From JAUXIQ01 sp030620925 [NCBI: Nitrospinota bacterium] (lineage in GTDB: Bacteria > JAUXIQ01), in contig JAUXIQ010000097.1 of NCBI GenBank assembly GCA_030620925.1, positions 1 through 7,137 of the forward strand: a DNA stretch of 7,137 nucleotides. Direction: 5' to 3'. Below the pieces are notes generated by a model. That model saw nothing but the letters and a program-made list of their open reading frames with translations, was not told where the DNA came from and did not search any database. Positions 377-6,733 of this stretch are shown here, piece by piece. Numbering within the stretch: the first letter of the stretch is position 1; each line of letters starts with the position of its first letter. The translations under genes were made by a program, and so were the position numbers.

Positions 377-967
377 ATGATAAAATTCAACGGAGTTAAC
401 CATTTAGCGATGGCAACGGGAAATATGGACGAGACAATCCGCTTCTGGAGAGACCTGCTGGGCATGAGATTGGTTGCCGGAGTGGGGCGGCCCGGATACA
501 GGCACTATTTTTTCGAAATCTCAGAAAACGATCTCATAGCTTTCTTCGAGTGGACGGATGTGGAGCCGGTCGCTAAAAAGGAGCACGGCCGGCCGGTTGA
601 AGGCCCCTTCATCTTCGACCACGTCTCCTTCGGCGTGGAAACTGAAGACGGCCTCTGGGAGTTGAAGGATAAACTTACCGCCGCGGGGTTTTCGGTGTCT
701 GACGTCATAGACCACGGCTTCATCCACTCCATCTACGCCCACGATCCCAACGGCATCCCCATCGAATTCAGCCACAACGTGGAGGGCGTTGATATTCGCA
801 AGGAGCCGGCCATGGTCGATTCAGACCCTTCGGATGTATCCAGAGAAGGCAGTGAGCCGCTGTTTGACAAGTGGCTGCAGGTGGAAAAGCAGACGCCGCA
901 GGAGGAACGAGTCGTCTACCCCGGGGCGGGGAGCGAGCTGTATCAGGGGAAAAAAGAGGCCGGTTAG
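377..967 (+). CDS. VOC-superfamily (glyoxalase/extradiol dioxygenase fold) protein
   Basis: A 196-residue cytoplasmic protein of the vicinal oxygen chelate superfamily. The family uses paired beta-alpha-beta-beta-beta modules to hold a divalent metal, and includes glyoxalase I, epimerases, dioxygenases and fosfomycin-type resistance proteins. The first module starts at residue 1 (V-N-H-L) and the second near residue 78 (F-D-H-V-S-F-G-V-E). Likely metal ligands are His9, Glu58 (F-F-E-W), His82 and Glu130 (P-I-E-F), so the protein should be catalytically competent. Residues about 138-196 form a charged, Pro-rich tail beyond the usual VOC length. The start at 377 is chosen because AAAAGGAGAG lies just upstream; an earlier in-frame ATG at 293 has no such site. 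The substrate cannot be deduced. The next gene follows after 79 nt on the same strand and may be cotranscribed. Confidence 0.85.
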   Translation: MIKFNGVNHLAMATGNMDETIRFWRDLLGMRLVAGVGRPGYRHYFFEISENDLIAFFEWTDVEPVAKKEHGRPVEGPFIFDHVSFGVETEDGLWELKDKLTAAGFSVSDVIDHGFIHSIYAHDPNGIPIEFSHNVEGVDIRKEPAMVDSDPSDVSREGSEPLFDKWLQVEKQTPQEERVVYPGAGSELYQGKKEAG

Positions 968-1002
968 GTTGAGTAAGCTGGGTTTTTCTTAAAGGGAAAT
1001 GT

Positions 1003-1022
1003 GATTATCCAAGATGGTAATC
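1003..1022 (+). other. Hairpin in the leader of the selenoprotein gene
   Basis: GATTATC (1003-1009) pairs with GGTAATC (1016-1022) over 7 bp, one of them a G-U wobble, around loop CAAGAT. It lies between the VOC stop and the ribosome binding site (AAAGGGGGAA, 1031-1040) of the following gene. No T-run follows, so it is not an intrinsic terminator. It may be a weak leader structure or chance. Confidence 0.3.
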
Positions 1023-1046
1023 CAGATTCAAAAGGGGGAAATTGCC

Positions 1047-1616
1047 ATGGGGAACAAGATCGAATGGGAAACGGATTTGTATAGGGCCTTGACTAAGGCA
1101 AGGAGCGAGGAAAAACAGGTATTGCTCGATTTCTTCAACCAGGGTTGAATCGGCTGTCAACAGATGGATGCAGTTACGTATCCAGACACCAAAGTTATCC
1201 AAACCGTTGAAAAGTATGCGGTTCCATTACGTGTGCTATTTGATGCTCAACCCATTTCCACCGATTTTAACATTAAATGGACCCCGACCCTGATAACGCT
1301 CGATTCTGAGGGCAAGGAACATCACAGGACTGTCGGTTTCCTCGCCCCTGAAGAGTTTGTTCCCTCGTTGCTGCTGGGCATCGGAAAGACTCATTTCGAG
1401 AGGGAGCAATTCGGAGAAGCGCTCACAAGTTTTGAGGGGCTTTTAACCGATTATCACGAGAGTGACTCAGCGGCCGAGGGTATCTACCTGTGCGGTGTCA
1501 GTAAGTACAAAAGCACTGGTGACCCCTCACCGTTAAAGGAAACTTACGAAAAGCTCCAGGCAGAATATCCATCGAGTGAGTGGACCAAACGGGCGTATCC
1601 CTATCGGCTCTTATAG
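1047..1616 (+). CDS. Thioredoxin-fold selenoprotein (U-I-G-C active site) with TPR-like tail; internal TGA read as selenocysteine
   Basis: Reading from ATG 1047, which follows a good ribosome binding site (AAAGGGGGAA), one frame runs to TAG at 1614-1616, broken only by TGA at codon 34 (1146-1148). Sequence on both sides is plainly one protein: L-L-D-F-F-N-Q-G before, then I-G-C-Q-Q-M-D after. Asp28 sits six residues before position 34, the spacing of Asp26 to Cys32 in E. coli thioredoxin, so the TGA replaces the nucleophilic first cysteine of CxxC, leaving resolving Cys37. A likely cis-proline loop is at W-T-P-T (Pro80). Residues about 105-189 form helical, TPR-like repeats (L-G-I-G-K-T-H-F, then Y-E-K-L-Q-A-E-Y-P). 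There is no signal peptide, so a cytoplasmic thiol/selenol oxidoreductase of 189 residues is expected. A SECIS-like hairpin follows the TGA. Alternative: a Cys-to-stop nonsense mutation (one base from TGC or TGT). The partner is unknown. Confidence 0.85.
1165..1184 (+). promoter_or_regulatory. Putative bacterial SECIS element (selenocysteine insertion hairpin)
   Basis: TGGATGC (1165-1171) pairs with GTATCCA (1178-1184): seven base pairs including one G-U wobble, closing a six-base loop AGTTAC. The loop has G at its second position followed by U, as in the SelB-binding loops of known bacterial SECIS elements, where a G among the first two loop bases is typical. The loop begins 23 nt after the TGA, inside the usual window of roughly 16-37 nt. 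The hairpin lies within coding sequence, as expected in bacteria. Pairing was done by eye without energy calculation. Confidence 0.7.
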
Positions 1617-1640
1617 CGAATAGATTGATACAGAACTTTG

Positions 1641-1655
1641 CCGGGGACCGGTTTT
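1641..1655 (+). terminator. Weak possible terminator between convergent genes
   Basis: CCGG (1641-1644) and CCGG (1648-1651) can form a four-base stem with loop GGA, followed by TTTT (1652-1655). This lies in the 60-nt gap between the stop of the selenoprotein gene and that of the convergent dehydrogenase gene. The stem is short and the T-run brief, so this is only a candidate. Confidence 0.3.
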
Positions 1656-1676
1656 AAAGATGGTCAGGGGGTAGCG

Positions 1677-2588
1677 CTATTCTTCGGCCAGGACACTGGC
1701 TTCGAAATCAGCCATATCCTCAAGGACGGTTATGAGGGCCGACATGTCCAGGTTGCCTTTGCCCGTAGCCTTCATTGACGTCATCAATTGATACACGGTG
1801 CTGCCGGCGGGGAGAGGCAGGTCTGCCTGAGAAGCCATGTCCAGAATGATGCGCAGCGTCTTGTGAGCGTTGCTGAGCTTTGCCGAGGGGGGTTTGAAGC
1901 GTCGTTGGAGTATGCGTTCCGAAAATCCGTTCATGACGTTGGAGTTGAAGCTTCCGGCGTTGAGCGCTTCTATCATCTTCTCAGGTTCAAGGCCCGATTT
2001 CATACCCAATATCAGCCCTTCACAGAGAGCTTGCAGGTTGATATACGCCATCAGGTTGTTCACCATCTTAAGCGTAAGGCCGCAGCCGGTAGGCCCTATG
2101 TAGAAGAGCTTGTCCCCCAGTATCTTCAGTATGGGGAGGCATTCCTTGAAAAGAGTTTCTTTTCCGCCCACAAAAATGGCCAGCGTGCCTTCCCTGGCCC
2201 CTTTCTCTCCGCCGGTGAGCCCTGCGTCGAGCATTCTCACCCCCTTATTCCTGGCTTTCTCAGCTACCTGTTGGATAACGAGGGGTGAAATATTGGAGGT
2301 AACTATAACCGTGAGACCTTCCCTTGCGCCTTCGATAACGCCGCTCTTTCCCAGCATCACTTCTTCAACGTCGGGCGAATCGGGCACAGCGATAAAAATG
2401 ATGTCCGTTTTCTTGGCTACCTCACAGGGGCTTTCAGACGCAGTAACCCCCAATTTTATCAGTTTTTTCATGGGGGCCGGTCTTATGTCGTAGACTGTTG
2501 GAGAATATCCCGCCGAAAGAAGTTTGCGGGCTATGGCGCTGCCCATAATGCCTACACCGATGACACCGAGCTTTAAGTCATTTTTCAT
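1677..2588 (-). CDS. 3-hydroxyisobutyrate dehydrogenase-like NAD(P)-dependent beta-hydroxyacid dehydrogenase
   Basis: A full-length 303-residue member of the beta-hydroxyacid dehydrogenase family (3-hydroxyisobutyrate, tartronate semialdehyde and related dehydrogenases), which oxidise 3-hydroxy acids or reduce the semialdehydes in the cytoplasm. The N-terminal Rossmann motif is G11-V-G-I-M-G16. Asp34 at the end of the second strand favours NAD over NADP. The substrate loop D-A-G-L-T-G-G (121-127) corresponds to the family's D-A-P-V-S-G-G with two or three changes. The catalytic lysine is Lys174 in G-L-T-L-K-M-V-N-N, with Asn177 and Asn178. The C-terminal helical domain carries A-H-K-T-L (241-245) where many relatives have K-D, so substrate preference may differ. 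Start ATG at 2588 has GGAG seven bases upstream. It is the last of four minus-strand genes; a 130-nt gap with a strong hairpin separates it from the upstream reductase. The exact substrate is not resolvable. Confidence 0.85.
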   Translation of the reverse strand: MKNDLKLGVIGVGIMGSAIARKLLSAGYSPTVYDIRPAPMKKLIKLGVTASESPCEVAKKTDIIFIAVPDSPDVEEVMLGKSGVIEGAREGLTVIVTSNISPLVIQQVAEKARNKGVRMLDAGLTGGEKGAREGTLAIFVGGKETLFKECLPILKILGDKLFYIGPTGCGLTLKMVNNLMAYINLQALCEGLILGMKSGLEPEKMIEALNAGSFNSNVMNGFSERILQRRFKPPSAKLSNAHKTLRIILDMASQADLPLPAGSTVYQLMTSMKATGKGNLDMSALITVLEDMADFEASVLAEE

Positions 2589-2615
2589 GGCTTAGCTCCG
2601 ATAGGTTATTAAGCC

Positions 2616-2657
2616 CGATCCTGCTCGTGGTCCTCAGCAGCGGACCACCTAGCATCG
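2616..2657 (-). other. Long hairpin between the OYE-family gene and the dehydrogenase gene
   Basis: GTGGTCC (2627-2633) and GGACCAC (2642-2648) pair perfectly around eight bases. The stem extends through small internal loops with GCT/AGC (2623-2625 with 2651-2653) and CGAT/ATCG (2616-2619 with 2654-2657), giving about 14 pairs. On the minus strand it follows the reductase stop and precedes the dehydrogenase start by about 28 nt. No T-run follows in the minus direction, so a classical intrinsic terminator is unlikely. A leader structure, mRNA processing signal or protein-binding palindrome are all possible. Confidence 0.5.
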
Positions 2658-2718
2658 TGTTTATTGGCAGGGGGGTACAATTATTCTTACTATTTTTATC
2701 GGAGTTTGCCTGAATTTC

Positions 2719-3879
2719 TTAATCGTTAAAAATGCAGGTCAGCCTGCCCTTTTGTAAATTTTCAAGGCAGCCGTTGCAGGATACGCATTTAGCCGGCTCC
2801 TGATCTCCCTCCCGAAATCGTTCCACAAGGTGTGGCTCTCGTATGAAGGGGCGGCACAGCGCGACGCAGTCGGCGACGCCCTCTTCAACGACGCGCTCCA
2901 TAATGTCGAAACTTCGCAAACCTCCTACCAGGAAAAGGGGTATCTTCACCTCTTTCCTGACTTCCCTGGCCGAATCCAGGTAATATGCCTCTTTTTCGCG
3001 GGTATCCACGCCGGTCCTGATGTGATGGGCAGCTTCCTGCTCCACGCCCTCGGAGACTTCTATTGCGTCCATACCTACCTGGGCAAGTCGCTTCGCCATC
3101 TGAACGCCTTCGGGAAGAGGGAGACCATCCTTTATCTGATCCTCGGCTCCCATCTTTATCATCACCGGGTAATCCTGGCCCACGGAATCTCTCACCGCCT
3201 CGTAGCAGGAAAGGATGAAGCGCATGCGGTTCTCGAGAGGCCCGCCCCATTCATCGGAGCGGCGATTGGCGGCCGGGGATGCGAACTCGGAGATGAGGTA
3301 GCCGTGGCCTCCGTGGAACTGCACCCCGTCGAAACCCGCCGCACGCACTCTGCGCGCCGCCAGGGCATAAGCCTCGATCACCTGCTGGATCTGTTCTTCG
3401 GTCATCTCCAGGGCTTCCATGGGGGTGGTGTGAGCCTTATATTCAGGTGTGCCCTTCTCGGTGTGGATTATTTCCTTGGTGCCCTCGAATGATACCCATT
3501 CCTTCTTCGTACCAGAGGGGGCCAACGTCTGAATGCCCTTTTGTCTTCCCACGGCGGATTGCGAGCCGGAATCGCCTATTTGCAGCACTACTTTGGAATC
3601 GTAGCGGTGCACCGCCTCCGTTACGCGTTTCATGCCGTCTATGAACCGGTCGTCGTAGATGGCGTTCTGGTCGGGAACGGCCTGGCCGGTGGGCGTCACG
3701 TATGCGAAACCGACAATTATGAGGCCCACTTCCCCTTTTGCCAGGTCGGCGAGGAATTCCACCGACTCGTCGGTGATCTGGCCGTCAACGGTGGAAAAAC
3801 CGTCGTGCGTCGCCGAGCGCACGAACCGGTTGGGTATCTCCATTCCGGCGATGTTTATCGGCTCAAAAAGTATAGACAT
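2719..3879 (-). CDS. Old Yellow Enzyme family NADH:flavin oxidoreductase (single-domain, with C-terminal cysteine cluster)
   Basis: A 386-residue FMN-dependent TIM-barrel reductase related to the N-terminal domain of 2,4-dienoyl-CoA reductase; the family reduces activated C=C bonds. Visible motifs: N17-R18 near the start; Gln100; the substrate-binding histidines His189 and His192 in F-H-G-G-H-G-Y-L; the signature E-F-A-S-P-A-A-N-R-R-S-D-E-W-G-G (198-213) with L-E-N-R (215-218); phosphate-binding G319-G320; and Arg343. Near the end Cys365, Cys368, Cys371 and Cys382 (CxxCxxCx10C) resemble the iron-sulfur cysteines of dienoyl-CoA reductases, but the usual C-terminal FAD/NAD domain is absent. Q-I-G-D-S-G-S (100-106) differs from the common Q-L-x-H-x-G-R. 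The start at 3879 is chosen because GGGGGAGGG precedes it; the 24 extra in-frame codons overlap the upstream gene and look non-native. It follows the hydrolase gene by 13 nt, so the two are surely cotranscribed. Substrate unknown. Confidence 0.88.
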   Translation of the reverse strand: MSILFEPINIAGMEIPNRFVRSATHDGFSTVDGQITDESVEFLADLAKGEVGLIIVGFAYVTPTGQAVPDQNAIYDDRFIDGMKRVTEAVHRYDSKVVLQIGDSGSQSAVGRQKGIQTLAPSGTKKEWVSFEGTKEIIHTEKGTPEYKAHTTPMEALEMTEEQIQQVIEAYALAARRVRAAGFDGVQFHGGHGYLISEFASPAANRRSDEWGGPLENRMRFILSCYEAVRDSVGQDYPVMIKMGAEDQIKDGLPLPEGVQMAKRLAQVGMDAIEVSEGVEQEAAHHIRTGVDTREKEAYYLDSAREVRKEVKIPLFLVGGLRSFDIMERVVEEGVADCVALCRPFIREPHLVERFREGDQEPAKCVSCNGCLENLQKGRLTCIFND

Positions 3880-3892
3880 TTTTCCCTCCCCC

Positions 3893-4693
3893 TTATCCGT
3901 CTTCGCTGTCGTTGATGAACTCTTTAATGGCGCCGAAATAGTCTTCCACACCCCGGTGGAGGATGTCGTTATGATCGGCGCCGGGGATTATCAGGAGCCG
4001 CTTATTGGCGGCCGCGCTCTTTTTGTGTAAGGTCCTTCCGTGGTCGACGGGAACCAGGGAGTCCAGCTCGCCGTGAATTATGAGGGTCGGTATCTTTATG
4101 GTCGAAATCTTATTGAGGTTGGAGAACCGCTCGAATAGTTCTACAGGCAGGTCGTCGAAAAAAGCACTGAACATCTGCATCAGCCTGGTGGATTCGGCGA
4201 AGCTGCTTTCCAGTATCAGCCCCTTGATACTTTCCTGGTGGTGATAGGCCAGCTCCACCACGGAAGCGCCTCCCAGCGACCGCCCCATCAGATACAGCTT
4301 CTCTGAATAACCCAGGTGTTTCAGCAGATGGGGCAGGGACTGGTAGATGGTATGCGCGTCCTTATACATGGCGGAGATGGTGGGATCGCCCGTGCTCAAG
4401 CCGTAGCCCCGGTAATCAGCCACGAACAGGTTGGCTCCGATTTTGTTGTAGAGTGGGCCCAGGCCGTCGTGATCGCCCACGGTCTCGCCGTTGCCGTGGA
4501 AATAGAGTATGGTGGGCGAAGCCTTATCGACGGTGTAGAAGCGGCAGCCTATCTCCACGCCGTCTCCTACGGGGATGAAATGGTCGGAAATATTGGGATC
4601 AGAAGGGGCCCCACTGAAATCTCTTCTCGGATAAAAGATGATGGAGAGGATTTCAGGCCGGTCAAGGGCCGAATAGTCCAGTTCATGCGTCAT
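3893..4693 (-). CDS. Alpha/beta hydrolase (BEM46/ABHD13-like serine hydrolase)
   Basis: A 266-residue soluble alpha/beta hydrolase, expected to cleave an ester, thioester or similar bond. The oxyanion region is Y-F-H-G-N-G (64-69), the nucleophile elbow is G-R-S-L-G with Ser139, the acid is Asp211 in H-G-E-L-D, and the catalytic histidine is His241 in G-A-D-H-N-D, so the triad is complete. The D-Y-R-G-Y-G stretch (93-98) is typical of the BEM46/ABHD13 branch. There is no signal peptide or membrane segment. ATG at 4693 is preferred because AAGGGG lies five bases upstream; the GTG two codons earlier (4699) would abut that site. The stop is 13 nt before the OYE-family start, whose ribosome binding site lies in the gap. 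The terminator upstream suggests its own promoter or read-through from the SDR gene. Substrate unknown. Confidence 0.85.
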   Translation of the reverse strand: MTHELDYSALDRPEILSIIFYPRRDFSGAPSDPNISDHFIPVGDGVEIGCRFYTVDKASPTILYFHGNGETVGDHDGLGPLYNKIGANLFVADYRGYGLSTGDPTISAMYKDAHTIYQSLPHLLKHLGYSEKLYLMGRSLGGASVVELAYHHQESIKGLILESSFAESTRLMQMFSAFFDDLPVELFERFSNLNKISTIKIPTLIIHGELDSLVPVDHGRTLHKKSAAANKRLLIIPGADHNDILHRGVEDYFGAIKEFINDSEDG

Positions 4694-4735
4694 GAGCACC
4701 CCTTCTTAGCCGGTTTTGCCTGATTATCTTAAGAG

Positions 4736-4769
4736 AAAAAAACAGGGGGCGGCAGCTTGACCGCCCCCT
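4736..4769 (-). terminator. Strong rho-independent terminator of the SDR gene
   Basis: On the minus strand, GGGGGCGG and CCGCCCCC (plus-strand arms 4761-4768 and 4745-4752), extended by one A-T pair, form a nine-pair GC-rich stem with an eight-base loop. It is followed after two bases by seven consecutive T (4742-4736). The stem begins 13 nt after the SDR stop codon, which confirms that this TGA ends translation. Confidence 0.92.
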
Positions 4770-4782
4770 CTGATATTTTTCA

Positions 4783-5583
4783 TCAACCGACCATGCTGTA
4801 ACCGCCGCTCACGCTCACCACCTGGCCCGTAATATGCCCTGCCACCAATTCGGAGGACAGGAAGACCACGGTGTTCGCAACGTCCTGGGGCTTGCCGATC
4901 TTCCGCAGCGGATAGGCCCTCTTGATCTTCTCAAGCTGGTCGTCATCGAAACCTATCTGCCTGTCCGCCCACATGCTCTGTTCGCCCACGTCCTCTGAGC
5001 TGCCGGGAATGGTCACACCGGGGCAAACGGCGTTGCAGCGAACGCCGAACTTGCCGTTTTCGCGGGCGATGGTCTTCATGAAGCTGTTGATGGCCGCTTT
5101 GCAGCCGCCGTAGACCGCTTCCCGGAACTCGCCCATCCGGCTGGCGTCTGAGCTCATACTGACGATGGAGCCACCATTGTTGTCTATGTAGTGGGTGAGG
5201 ATGGCTTTGGTGCAGTTGAGCGCTCCTTTGTAGTTGATGCTGATGATCTTATCCCAGAAGTCGGGCGTGGTTTCGGTGAAGAGCATGAGTTGGTCCCAGC
5301 CGACGTTATTCACCAGGGCGCTCACTCGACCGAACTCATCGATGGCTTTCTGTATCATGGCCGAGACGCTGTCCAGGTCGGTGACGTCGCACTGCGTAAC
5401 GATGGTCTTACCGCCTGCTTTTAAGGCGTCGGCCTCTTTGGCCACCTTCTCGCCCTGGGAGGGGTCTATCTCAGCGATAACCACGTTGGCCCCTTCGCCG
5501 GCGAAGGTTAGGGAAATCGCCCGCCCGATGTTGGAGCCCCCACCGGTGACTATAACCGCTTTGTCTTTATAACCGAGGTCCAT
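4783..5583 (-). CDS. Short-chain dehydrogenase/reductase (SDR), BadH-like
   Basis: A 266-residue classical SDR, a cytoplasmic NAD(P)-dependent alcohol/ketone oxidoreductase. Cofactor motif T13-G-G-G-S-N-I-G20, an acidic residue at the end of strand two (Glu38 in I-A-E-I-D, favouring NAD), N92-N-V-G95, structural Asn117, and the catalytic set Ser145, Tyr158 and Lys162 (Y-G-G-C-K). The C-terminal motif G-H-I-T-G-Q and V-S-G-G-Y is also present. Overall pattern and length recall 2-hydroxycyclohexanecarboxyl-CoA dehydrogenase (BadH) of anaerobic benzoate degradation and FabG-type reductases; this is a resemblance from memory, not an assignment. ATG at 5583 has an excellent AAAGGAGG seven bases upstream, so the 14 earlier in-frame codons are rejected. 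The gene ends in TGA followed at once by a strong terminator. It is divergent from the metallo-hydrolase gene. Confidence 0.9.
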   Translation of the reverse strand: MDLGYKDKAVIVTGGGSNIGRAISLTFAGEGANVVIAEIDPSQGEKVAKEADALKAGGKTIVTQCDVTDLDSVSAMIQKAIDEFGRVSALVNNVGWDQLMLFTETTPDFWDKIISINYKGALNCTKAILTHYIDNNGGSIVSMSSDASRMGEFREAVYGGCKAAINSFMKTIARENGKFGVRCNAVCPGVTIPGSSEDVGEQSMWADRQIGFDDDQLEKIKRAYPLRKIGKPQDVANTVVFLSSELVAGHITGQVVSVSGGYSMVG

Positions 5584-5683
5584 TTTCTGTCCTCCTTTGC
5601 TGAGAAGTAAAAAAATTACATCCAAAGTTTAAAGGTTTAAAAGCGGTGCGAAATCAAAATGGTAAGTAGCGACAATCGTCCCG

Positions 5684-5712
5684 ATTTTAATTCAGTGGCG
5701 GCTCCATTGCAA
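5684..5712 (-). promoter_or_regulatory. Candidate sigma-70 type promoter for the SDR gene
   Basis: On the minus strand TTGCAA (plus 5707-5712) is followed after 17 nt by TAAAAT (plus 5684-5689), which match the -35 and -10 consensus at 4 of 6 and 5 of 6 positions. Transcription would start near 5677, giving a leader of about 90-95 nt before the ATG at 5583. The match was found by eye in an AT-rich region, so confidence is limited. Confidence 0.4.
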
Positions 5713-5776
5713 GCAGTTTCATTAATCATTGTGGTACCCGGAAGCCTCTACGCGGTTTGGTAAAAGCTGTGGCCAT

Positions 5777-5807
5777 CGTAAGGGCGGGTTTGAAACCCGC
5801 CCCTACC
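5777..5807. repeat. Single-hairpin palindromic element of the GTAGGGGC class
   Basis: GTAAGGGCGGGTTT (5778-5791) faces AAACCCGCCCCTAC (5793-5806) around one G, with 13 of 14 positions complementary. The core GGGCGGGTTT/AAACCCGCCC is shared with the element at 89-142. It stands in the divergent intergenic space, about 20 nt upstream of the TATAAT box of the metallo-hydrolase gene, so it may influence that promoter or insulate the two transcripts. Confidence 0.75.
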
Positions 5808-5825
5808 ACCTTGTGGTTATTCATA

Positions 5826-5831
5826 TATAAT
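5826..5831 (+). promoter_or_regulatory. Candidate -10 box (TATAAT) of the metallo-hydrolase gene
   Basis: A perfect TATAAT lies 20 nt before the chosen ATG. The region 16-18 nt further upstream is the end of the palindromic repeat and holds no clear -35 box; TTGTGG at 5811-5816 is too close. Transcription from here would give a leader of only about 14 nt that still includes the Shine-Dalgarno sequence. Confidence 0.4.
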
Positions 5832-5851
5832 AGATGGAGAAAGGAGGTAAT

Positions 5852-6604
5852 ATGGAACTGATAATCCTGGGGTCGGGGACGGCGGTGCCTTCCGCACGGC
5901 GGGGCGCTTCGGGCCTGGTGATAGTGGTAGGGGATGAACCCGTCCTTTTCGACAGCGGGCCGGGCACGCTGCAGCGCCTCGCCGGAGCGGGCGTAGACTG
6001 CCGCCGTCTGGAGAGGGTCTTCTACACTCACCTGCATCCGGACCACACTGCGGAGCTTGTCCCCCTGCTTTTTCTCTTCAGGAACCCTGATTACCTCCGG
6101 GATAAGGACCTCACTATAACCGGCCCCACCGGGTTTGAAGAATTTTACCGCAAGCTTCATGATACCTACGGCAGATGGGCGGCCGCCGAGGGGTATGAGC
6201 TTCGGATTAAAGAGGTGTTGAACAGCGAGCTGGATGCGGGAGGGTACAGGGTGAAGTCCAGAGAAGTGCTCCACACCGAGTACAGCGTTGGTTATCGCCT
6301 CGAAGATAGCAGCGGCTCTTCCATAGCTTATTCGGGGGATACAGCTTATTGCCGGGGAATAGTGGAATTGGGCGCGGGTGCGGATATACTGGTTCTCGAA
6401 TGTTCATTTCCCGACGGAGTGAAATCGGCGGACCATCTGACCCCTTCCGGCGCGGGGCGTATAGCCACAGAAACCGGCTGCGAACTGCTGGTGCTCACCC
6501 ACTTTTATCCACAGTGCGAGAACACGGATATTCTGGCGCAGGTGCGGGAGACATATAAAGGTGAGGTGGTGATGGCCGAAGACCAGATGCGCCTCAAAGT
6601 TTAA
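5852..6604 (+). CDS. RNase Z-like metallo-beta-lactamase fold hydrolase
   Basis: A 250-residue metallo-beta-lactamase fold protein of the RNase Z/arylsulfatase-like branch, which holds two zinc ions and cleaves phosphodiesters (tRNA 3' ends, cyclic nucleotides) or other esters. Metal motif T-H60-L-H62-P-D64-H65, then His141 (L-H-T-E-Y), Asp163 (Y-S-G-D-T) and His217 (T-H-F-Y-P) complete the expected ligand set; His195 in A-D-H-L-T-P matches the catalytic histidine motif of RNase Z. The N-terminus L-G-S-G-T-A-V-P is typical. It is shorter than many bacterial RNase Z proteins (about 300 residues) and I see no long exosite arm, so tRNA 3' processing is possible but not assured. Start 5852 is chosen because AAAGGAGG precedes it by four bases; the ATG at 5834 would place that site inside the coding region. 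It stands alone, divergent from the SDR gene and convergent with porB. Confidence 0.88.
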   Translation: MELIILGSGTAVPSARRGASGLVIVVGDEPVLFDSGPGTLQRLAGAGVDCRRLERVFYTHLHPDHTAELVPLLFLFRNPDYLRDKDLTITGPTGFEEFYRKLHDTYGRWAAAEGYELRIKEVLNSELDAGGYRVKSREVLHTEYSVGYRLEDSSGSSIAYSGDTAYCRGIVELGAGADILVLECSFPDGVKSADHLTPSGAGRIATETGCELLVLTHFYPQCENTDILAQVRETYKGEVVMAEDQMRLKV

Positions 6605-6636
6605 TGCTGAGTTTAATCGCTATACGGAATTATAAT

Positions 6637-6733
6637 CGTAGGGGCAGGCCCCTGTGCCTGCCCAAATAATAAAAACGCCCATGATGGGCAACCATGTGCC
6701 CATAAAGGGCAACCACGGGGGGTTGCCCCTACG
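6637..6733. repeat. 97-bp MITE-like palindromic element with 10-bp terminal inverted repeats
   Basis: The ends CGTAGGGGCA (6637-6646) and TGCCCCTACG (6724-6733) are perfect inverted repeats of 10 bp. Inside are an 8-bp-arm hairpin, GGGCAGGC/GCCTGCCC (6642-6663), and tandem-like units CCCAT-GATGGGCAACCA and CCCAT-AAAGGGCAACCA (from about 6679 to 6715), one of which is missing from the inverted relative at 1-65. No coding capacity. It fills the gap between the convergent metallo-hydrolase and porB genes, where its hairpins could also help end transcripts. No clear target-site duplication was seen. Confidence 0.75.

Follow-up and report, generated by a model that had tools for sequence, protein, structure and literature searches.

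The described selenoproteins closest to the one reported here are those named 'Thiol:disulfide interchange protein', which excerpts of two reviews list with the domain PF13098 and the motif UxxC (PMC13188914, PMC9312934); a listed representative of the family is WP_011366075.1. In the excerpted text of a 2006 survey this family has three members, the rows naming Syntrophus aciditrophicus, Geobacter metallireducens and G. uraniumreducens (PMC1794560); the excerpted text of a 2008 survey treats the same family as cd02953, with a UxxC motif and 22 sequences (PMC2398784). The words TPR and tetratricopeptide are absent from the excerpts of both reviews; the main text of the deep-Sep paper likewise contains none of the terms thioredoxin, disulfide interchange or tetratricopeptide. 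Among the matches listed from the open-licence literature, we recognized no description of a thioredoxin–TPR selenoprotein.

Here we analyse a gene in a 7,137-nucleotide stretch of DNA, hereafter the window. Its product is very probably a cytosolic selenoprotein, a thiol–disulfide oxidoreductase that pairs a hairpin-directed Sec34 with Cys37 and may choose its targets through a predicted TPR domain.

A single TGA divides a thioredoxin-like frame

The gene occupies positions 1047–1616 of the forward strand as one frame of 189 residues including selenocysteine, ending in TAG, with a single inner TGA at codon 34 (1146–1148). A Shine–Dalgarno-like sequence at about 1033–1039 on the same strand ends 7 nt upstream of the ATG at 1047; under a loose pattern, 99 of 100 TGA-bearing family genes have such a string no more than 20 nt from their start (excluding L043, which runs off its contig end). 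These features agree with a preliminary description of the locus, which had proposed from the sequence an otherwise open frame with one TGA, a ribosome binding site ahead of it and a UxxC motif. As that description stated, Asp28 is six positions ahead of residue 34, the spacing of Asp26 to Cys32 in E. coli thioredoxin. Cys37 (TGT, 1155–1157) completes the motif as its resolving cysteine and is invariant in an 18-row alignment.

Translation of this frame with table 11 lists only 1164–1616, a product of 150 amino acids from Met40 that lacks the active site, as had been foreseen for standard gene calling. Such a product is also what would be expected of a pseudogene or a sequencing error, with the TGA a real stop or a misread cysteine codon, and a 150-residue C-terminal remnant or nothing being made.

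The TGA is conserved among relatives

Family and phylum searches around the genome that holds the window matched no other genome, and relatives were therefore taken from the groups around two other genomes, G001 and G002. Among 389 genomes of the class around G001, a profile search found 22 (23 rows) with an E of at most 1e-20; among 395 genomes of the phylum around G002, 114 had a match with an E of at most 1e-15. Each search scored no more than eight candidates per genome. The window gene, three loci (L007–L009), the loci of the G001 class and the upper rows of the G002-phylum matches listed gave 113 different gene records, all except one (L041) covering the site.

In the resulting 112 records, the window's own included, the site codon is TGA in 101, TGC in 9, ACG in 1 and GAG in 1. 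Counted from the listed rows, the genes with TGA come from 97 genomes; their identity to the window protein ranges from 70% down to 30%, and every one has a cysteine three codons downstream of the TGA. A scan of genome contigs gave three homologues with 65–67% identity, one titled as a Desulfobacterales bacterium and two as Deltaproteobacteria; in each, the only inner stop is a TGA at codon 34. Whether homologues have Cys or TGA at position 34, a check that the preliminary description had proposed, is thus answered by both, with TGA prevailing. We also compared substitution rates in three stretches on both sides of the TGA, and pN was below pS in 9 of 9 comparisons, although pS is high and the ratios are rough.

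These data bear directly on the possibility of a pseudogene or a misread codon. The truncated 150-residue frame and a decayed family member are what speak for it: the latter, L042 (1420–1731, reverse strand), keeps the site TGA, has an extra in-frame TAG and has lost the middle of the protein. Against it stand the retention of TGA in 101 of 112 records down to 30% identity, the excess of pS over pN on either side of the TGA, the conservation of the N-terminal half with a start of its own, and a hairpin after the TGA that is maintained by selection (see below). Since 100 further records share the TGA, we consider this explanation very unlikely, and favour a TGA that is decoded.

Some matches lie outside the count. 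Two rows from the G002 phylum (in G692 and G762) cover only positions 1–145 and have one TGA each. The G002-phylum matches listed that are weaker than E 1e-30 are mostly confined to the thioredoxin part, mostly lack an inner stop, and are presumably cysteine proteins. As read from these codons, a predominance of selenocysteine holds for the full-length family and not for all distant kin. Three matches in plasmid records, all 30–31% identical, are annotated as DsbD or DUF255. At least two TGA-bearing copies occur in some genomes (G205, G620, G692, G735 and G762); in G692 about 7 kb separates two copies on the same contig, and a different contig holds a third, shorter match.

A hairpin after the TGA is maintained by selection

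The sequence after the TGA can form a hairpin, a feature absent from the preliminary account. It starts 17 nt past the TGA and occupies 1166–1183 on the forward strand, with a stem of 1166–1171 paired to 1178–1183 and a loop of 1172–1177 whose second base is G. According to the excerpted text of an earlier study, a small apical loop containing guanosine is a common feature of bacterial SECIS elements (PMC1088965). The G is present in 101 of 101 TGA genes, and is largely forced by the Val or Gly codon in which it lies. At gathering thresholds, Rfam gave no match within the window.

We aligned the 101 TGA genes, gap-free downstream of the TGA, such that the stem comprises columns 21–26 and 33–38 counted from the T of the TGA. 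The full six-pair stem is present in 86 of the 101, and in the other 15 it is broken somewhere. Across the 98 different sequences, 93.9% of 588 cells are paired, compared to at most 63.9% when the stem is slid out of register. Cells changed on both sides number 36, against a mean of 8.9 in shuffles, and the covariation score is 0.250, against 0.150; neither value was reached in any of 500 shuffles, which leave the kinship of the sequences in place. Both-side changes occur in four of the six stem pairs. Two further measures are weak: further pair types number 10 where shuffles give 8.5, with 64 of 500 shuffles reaching that value; a slide of +2 gives five pairs with both-side changes against four in register.

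Because the stem lies within coding sequence, we also tested synonymous codon choice. Where the third base of a Thr codon closes the loop, the codon is ACG in 73 of 76 cases, compared to 206 of 867 Thr codons elsewhere. The choice of Tyr codon depends on what it pairs with, being TAT in 47 of 55 genes when opposite Asp (GAN) and TAC in 20 of 23 when opposite Gly (GGN) (Fisher p 1.8e-9, a guide only as the sequences are related). In all 101 TGA genes the native hairpin is more stable than its synonymous recodings are on average (200 per gene), with a mean z of -2.84 and -2.85 in two runs; for the window gene, 1% of the 200 recodings were equally stable. Folding against plain shuffles was unremarkable for the two loci L008 (z -0.76) and L009 (z 0.52).

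The 11 relatives without selenocysteine lack this signal. Their mean z against recodings is -0.09, with 3 of 11 below zero (L100, -0.97; L102, -2.97; L105, -0.63), none has all six pairs, and they average 2.3 pairs compared to 5.6 in the TGA genes. Because of the compensatory changes, the synonymous codon choice and the absence of the stem from these 11 relatives, we conclude from the alignments that 1166–1183 is a bacterial SECIS element.

Exchange of selenocysteine and cysteine

An unrooted FastTree phylogeny of 110 rows (L041, L042 and L043 left out) requires four changes among the states Sec, Cys and other. One cysteine protein, L100 (CVGC), is nested in a selenocysteine group and retains four of the six stem pairs, which suggests a Sec-to-Cys change, although the tree is unrooted and L101 sits on a long branch. 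Four pairs are likewise kept in L101, and two in L102. The nine full-length rows L102–L110 form a separate clade, mostly with CxxS, in which the site residue of L108 and L110 is something other than Sec or Cys. Their sequences suggest a branch with altered chemistry, and some members of the wider family may function differently.

The genome encodes selenocysteine machinery and uses UGA as a stop

The genome containing the window (2.50 Mb in 445 contigs, 89% complete) holds the selA, selB, selC and selD genes to which the preliminary description had tied its reading. SelA (509 bits) is encoded on contig C407, where a SelB wing domain lies within a 636-amino-acid frame adjoining selA, and contig C411 carries a tRNA-Sec (78 bits), whose anticodon is tca by ARAGORN. 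Two selD genes (398 and 383 bits; C134:3689–4615 and C51:87–1013; L160 and L161) have one in-frame TGA each, and both SelD selenophosphate synthetases are probably themselves selenoproteins. We also found selA in the genomes of all three homologues with 65–67% identity.

A second alternative is that UGA has been reassigned throughout the genome, to Trp or Gly for instance, or that a near-cognate tRNA reads through it, with selenocysteine having no part in either case. A lone inner TGA would by itself be compatible with this. However, of 100 TGA-bearing family genes (not counting L043, which its contig end truncates), 34 terminate in TGA, as does the gene at 4783–5583 of the window, so UGA is not reassigned. 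The full selenocysteine machinery in the genome, the RNA-level selection on the hairpin and the state of the records without TGA, which is Cys in 9 of 11 and Trp or Gly in none, likewise oppose it. We regard reassignment or near-cognate read-through as very unlikely, and decoding of the UGA at 1146–1148 as selenocysteine, by tRNA-Sec, SelA, SelB and SelD under the direction of the hairpin at 1166–1183, as strongly supported by these comparisons.

A thioredoxin domain is joined to a predicted TPR tail

The first part of the protein (residues 1–105; 1047–1361, forward strand) is a thioredoxin-like domain of the Thioredoxin_2 or DsbD-gamma type. It matches PF13098 (Thioredoxin_2) at 38.1 bits and PF13899 at 28.6 bits, both against a cut-off of 27, and carries the motif U34-I-G-C37. 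The best solved-structure matches of the first half by sequence are C-terminal domains of DsbD (E 7e-7). The 16 invariant columns of the 18-row alignment include C34, G36, C37 and W78-T79-P80, in which we take P80 to be the cis-Pro of the thioredoxin fold.

We assign the remainder (residues 101–189; 1347–1613, forward strand) as a predicted TPR domain. By sequence the second half matches the TPR domain of YbgF (E 1.3e-4), and Pfam TPR_6 scores 20 bits, under its cut-off of 26.3. An AlphaFold model built from a four-row alignment has a mean pLDDT of 71.9, with high confidence in the tail (77–97 by block) and values below 50 at residues 1–3, 33–39 and 68–95; because of the low pLDDT in the thioredoxin half of the model, the assignment of the thioredoxin fold rests on sequence. 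The best Foldseek match of the model is the YbgF TPR structure 2xev (probability 1.00). In VIA-align, 2xev_C (Z 12.8; r.m.s.d. 3.4 Å over 108 residues) and 5waq (Z 13.2; 1.8 Å over 81) are tied. Helical repeats can reach such Z values without kinship, so our TPR call leans on VIA-align jointly with the match to YbgF by sequence. In the structures listed it was mainly the TPR part that aligned, and the best 50 matches listed of either structure search include no thioredoxin chain. The predicted fold bears out the TPR-like tail of the preliminary description.

A proposed mechanism and electron donor

On the basis of fold and motif, the selenolate of Sec34 would attack a target protein at a disulfide or a sulfenic acid, and Cys37 would then resolve the selenenyl-sulfide. 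The TPR tail may bind a partner or substrate protein and thereby choose the target. The N-terminus has no obvious signal peptide by eye, consistent with a soluble, cytosolic protein. Electrons would most likely come from a thioredoxin-reductase system; the genome has one thioredoxin reductase match over the cut-off (381 bits compared to 343).

Alternatively, the selenoprotein could draw its electrons from ferredoxin-thioredoxin reductase and glutaredoxin, as part of a ferredoxin-driven thiol system. Such a donor is suggested by two loci, L007 (3674–6160) and L009 (5661–6250), in which genes for the ferredoxin-thioredoxin reductase beta-chain (FeThRed_B, PF02943; two copies in L007) and glutaredoxin lie downstream on the same strand. 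However, among 110 context loci, a good number of which are short, a sequence search of frames found FeThRed_B in these two and no others, and PF02943 has no match in the window genome, which is about 89% complete. We consider this donor unlikely, and prefer the thioredoxin-reductase system. L007 also has a rubrerythrin-like gene, and the region in L007 and L009 is a local thiol redox cluster.

Clustering of the neighbours across the 110 context loci, many of which are short, gave a largest cluster present in seven loci, and no partner is named by this context. The other genes of the window (377–6604) are ordinary metabolic ones, encoding glyoxalase/VOC, 3-hydroxyisobutyrate-dehydrogenase-like and Oxidored_FMN proteins, an alpha/beta hydrolase, a short-chain dehydrogenase and a metallo-beta-lactamase fold. 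Long, near-perfect inverted copies (8–66 with 6636–6694, 90–115 with 5781–5806, and 1–25 with 6698–6722) lie near both window ends; they consist of GC-rich, palindromic intergenic sequence and look like a dispersed intergenic repeat.

Comparison with known families

No NCBIfam model reaches its cut-off with the window protein or with four divergent homologues. TsoB (NF045694), VPGUxxT (NF041383 and NF041382) and Trx7/PDZ (NF041199) have a related thioredoxin-like domain and are weakly matched, but all fall far under cut-off and, judged by their names, have other motifs or architectures. Because no cut-off is reached by any of these five members and standard translation drops the active site, a family of about 100 members in the genomes covered here is probably being mis-called as a TPR-only remnant.

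DsbD carries membrane and other domains. Its C-terminal (gamma) domain provides the best solved-structure match of the window protein; in contrast, the window protein has 189 residues with selenocysteine and a TPR tail, and scores 42 bits with the NCBIfam DsbD model, for which the cut-off is 330. The label cd02953 of the catalogued selenoprotein family, which we take to be DsbD-gamma, denotes the same type of domain as that matched here.

A TPR-equipped thioredoxin with a selenocysteine nucleophile offers a system in which targeted thiol redox chemistry based on selenium can be tested. The presence of Sec and Cys forms in one family allows the two chemistries to be compared directly, and the forms without selenocysteine, having lost the hairpin, provide a clean internal control for SECIS evolution.

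By listed domain and motif, the window protein falls in the broad catalogued kind of PF13098 selenoproteins with UxxC. It shares both with the Thiol:disulfide interchange family, whose hosts in the excerpted 2006 list include deltaproteobacteria. Within that kind, we see roughly even chances that it represents a distinct, uncatalogued family, the nearest one being compared here by its description only. Such a family would be defined by a UxxC thioredoxin fused to a TPR domain, with Sec usual and Cys exceptional in full-length members, and by an active site hidden from standard calling, which gives a TPR-only product from about Met40.
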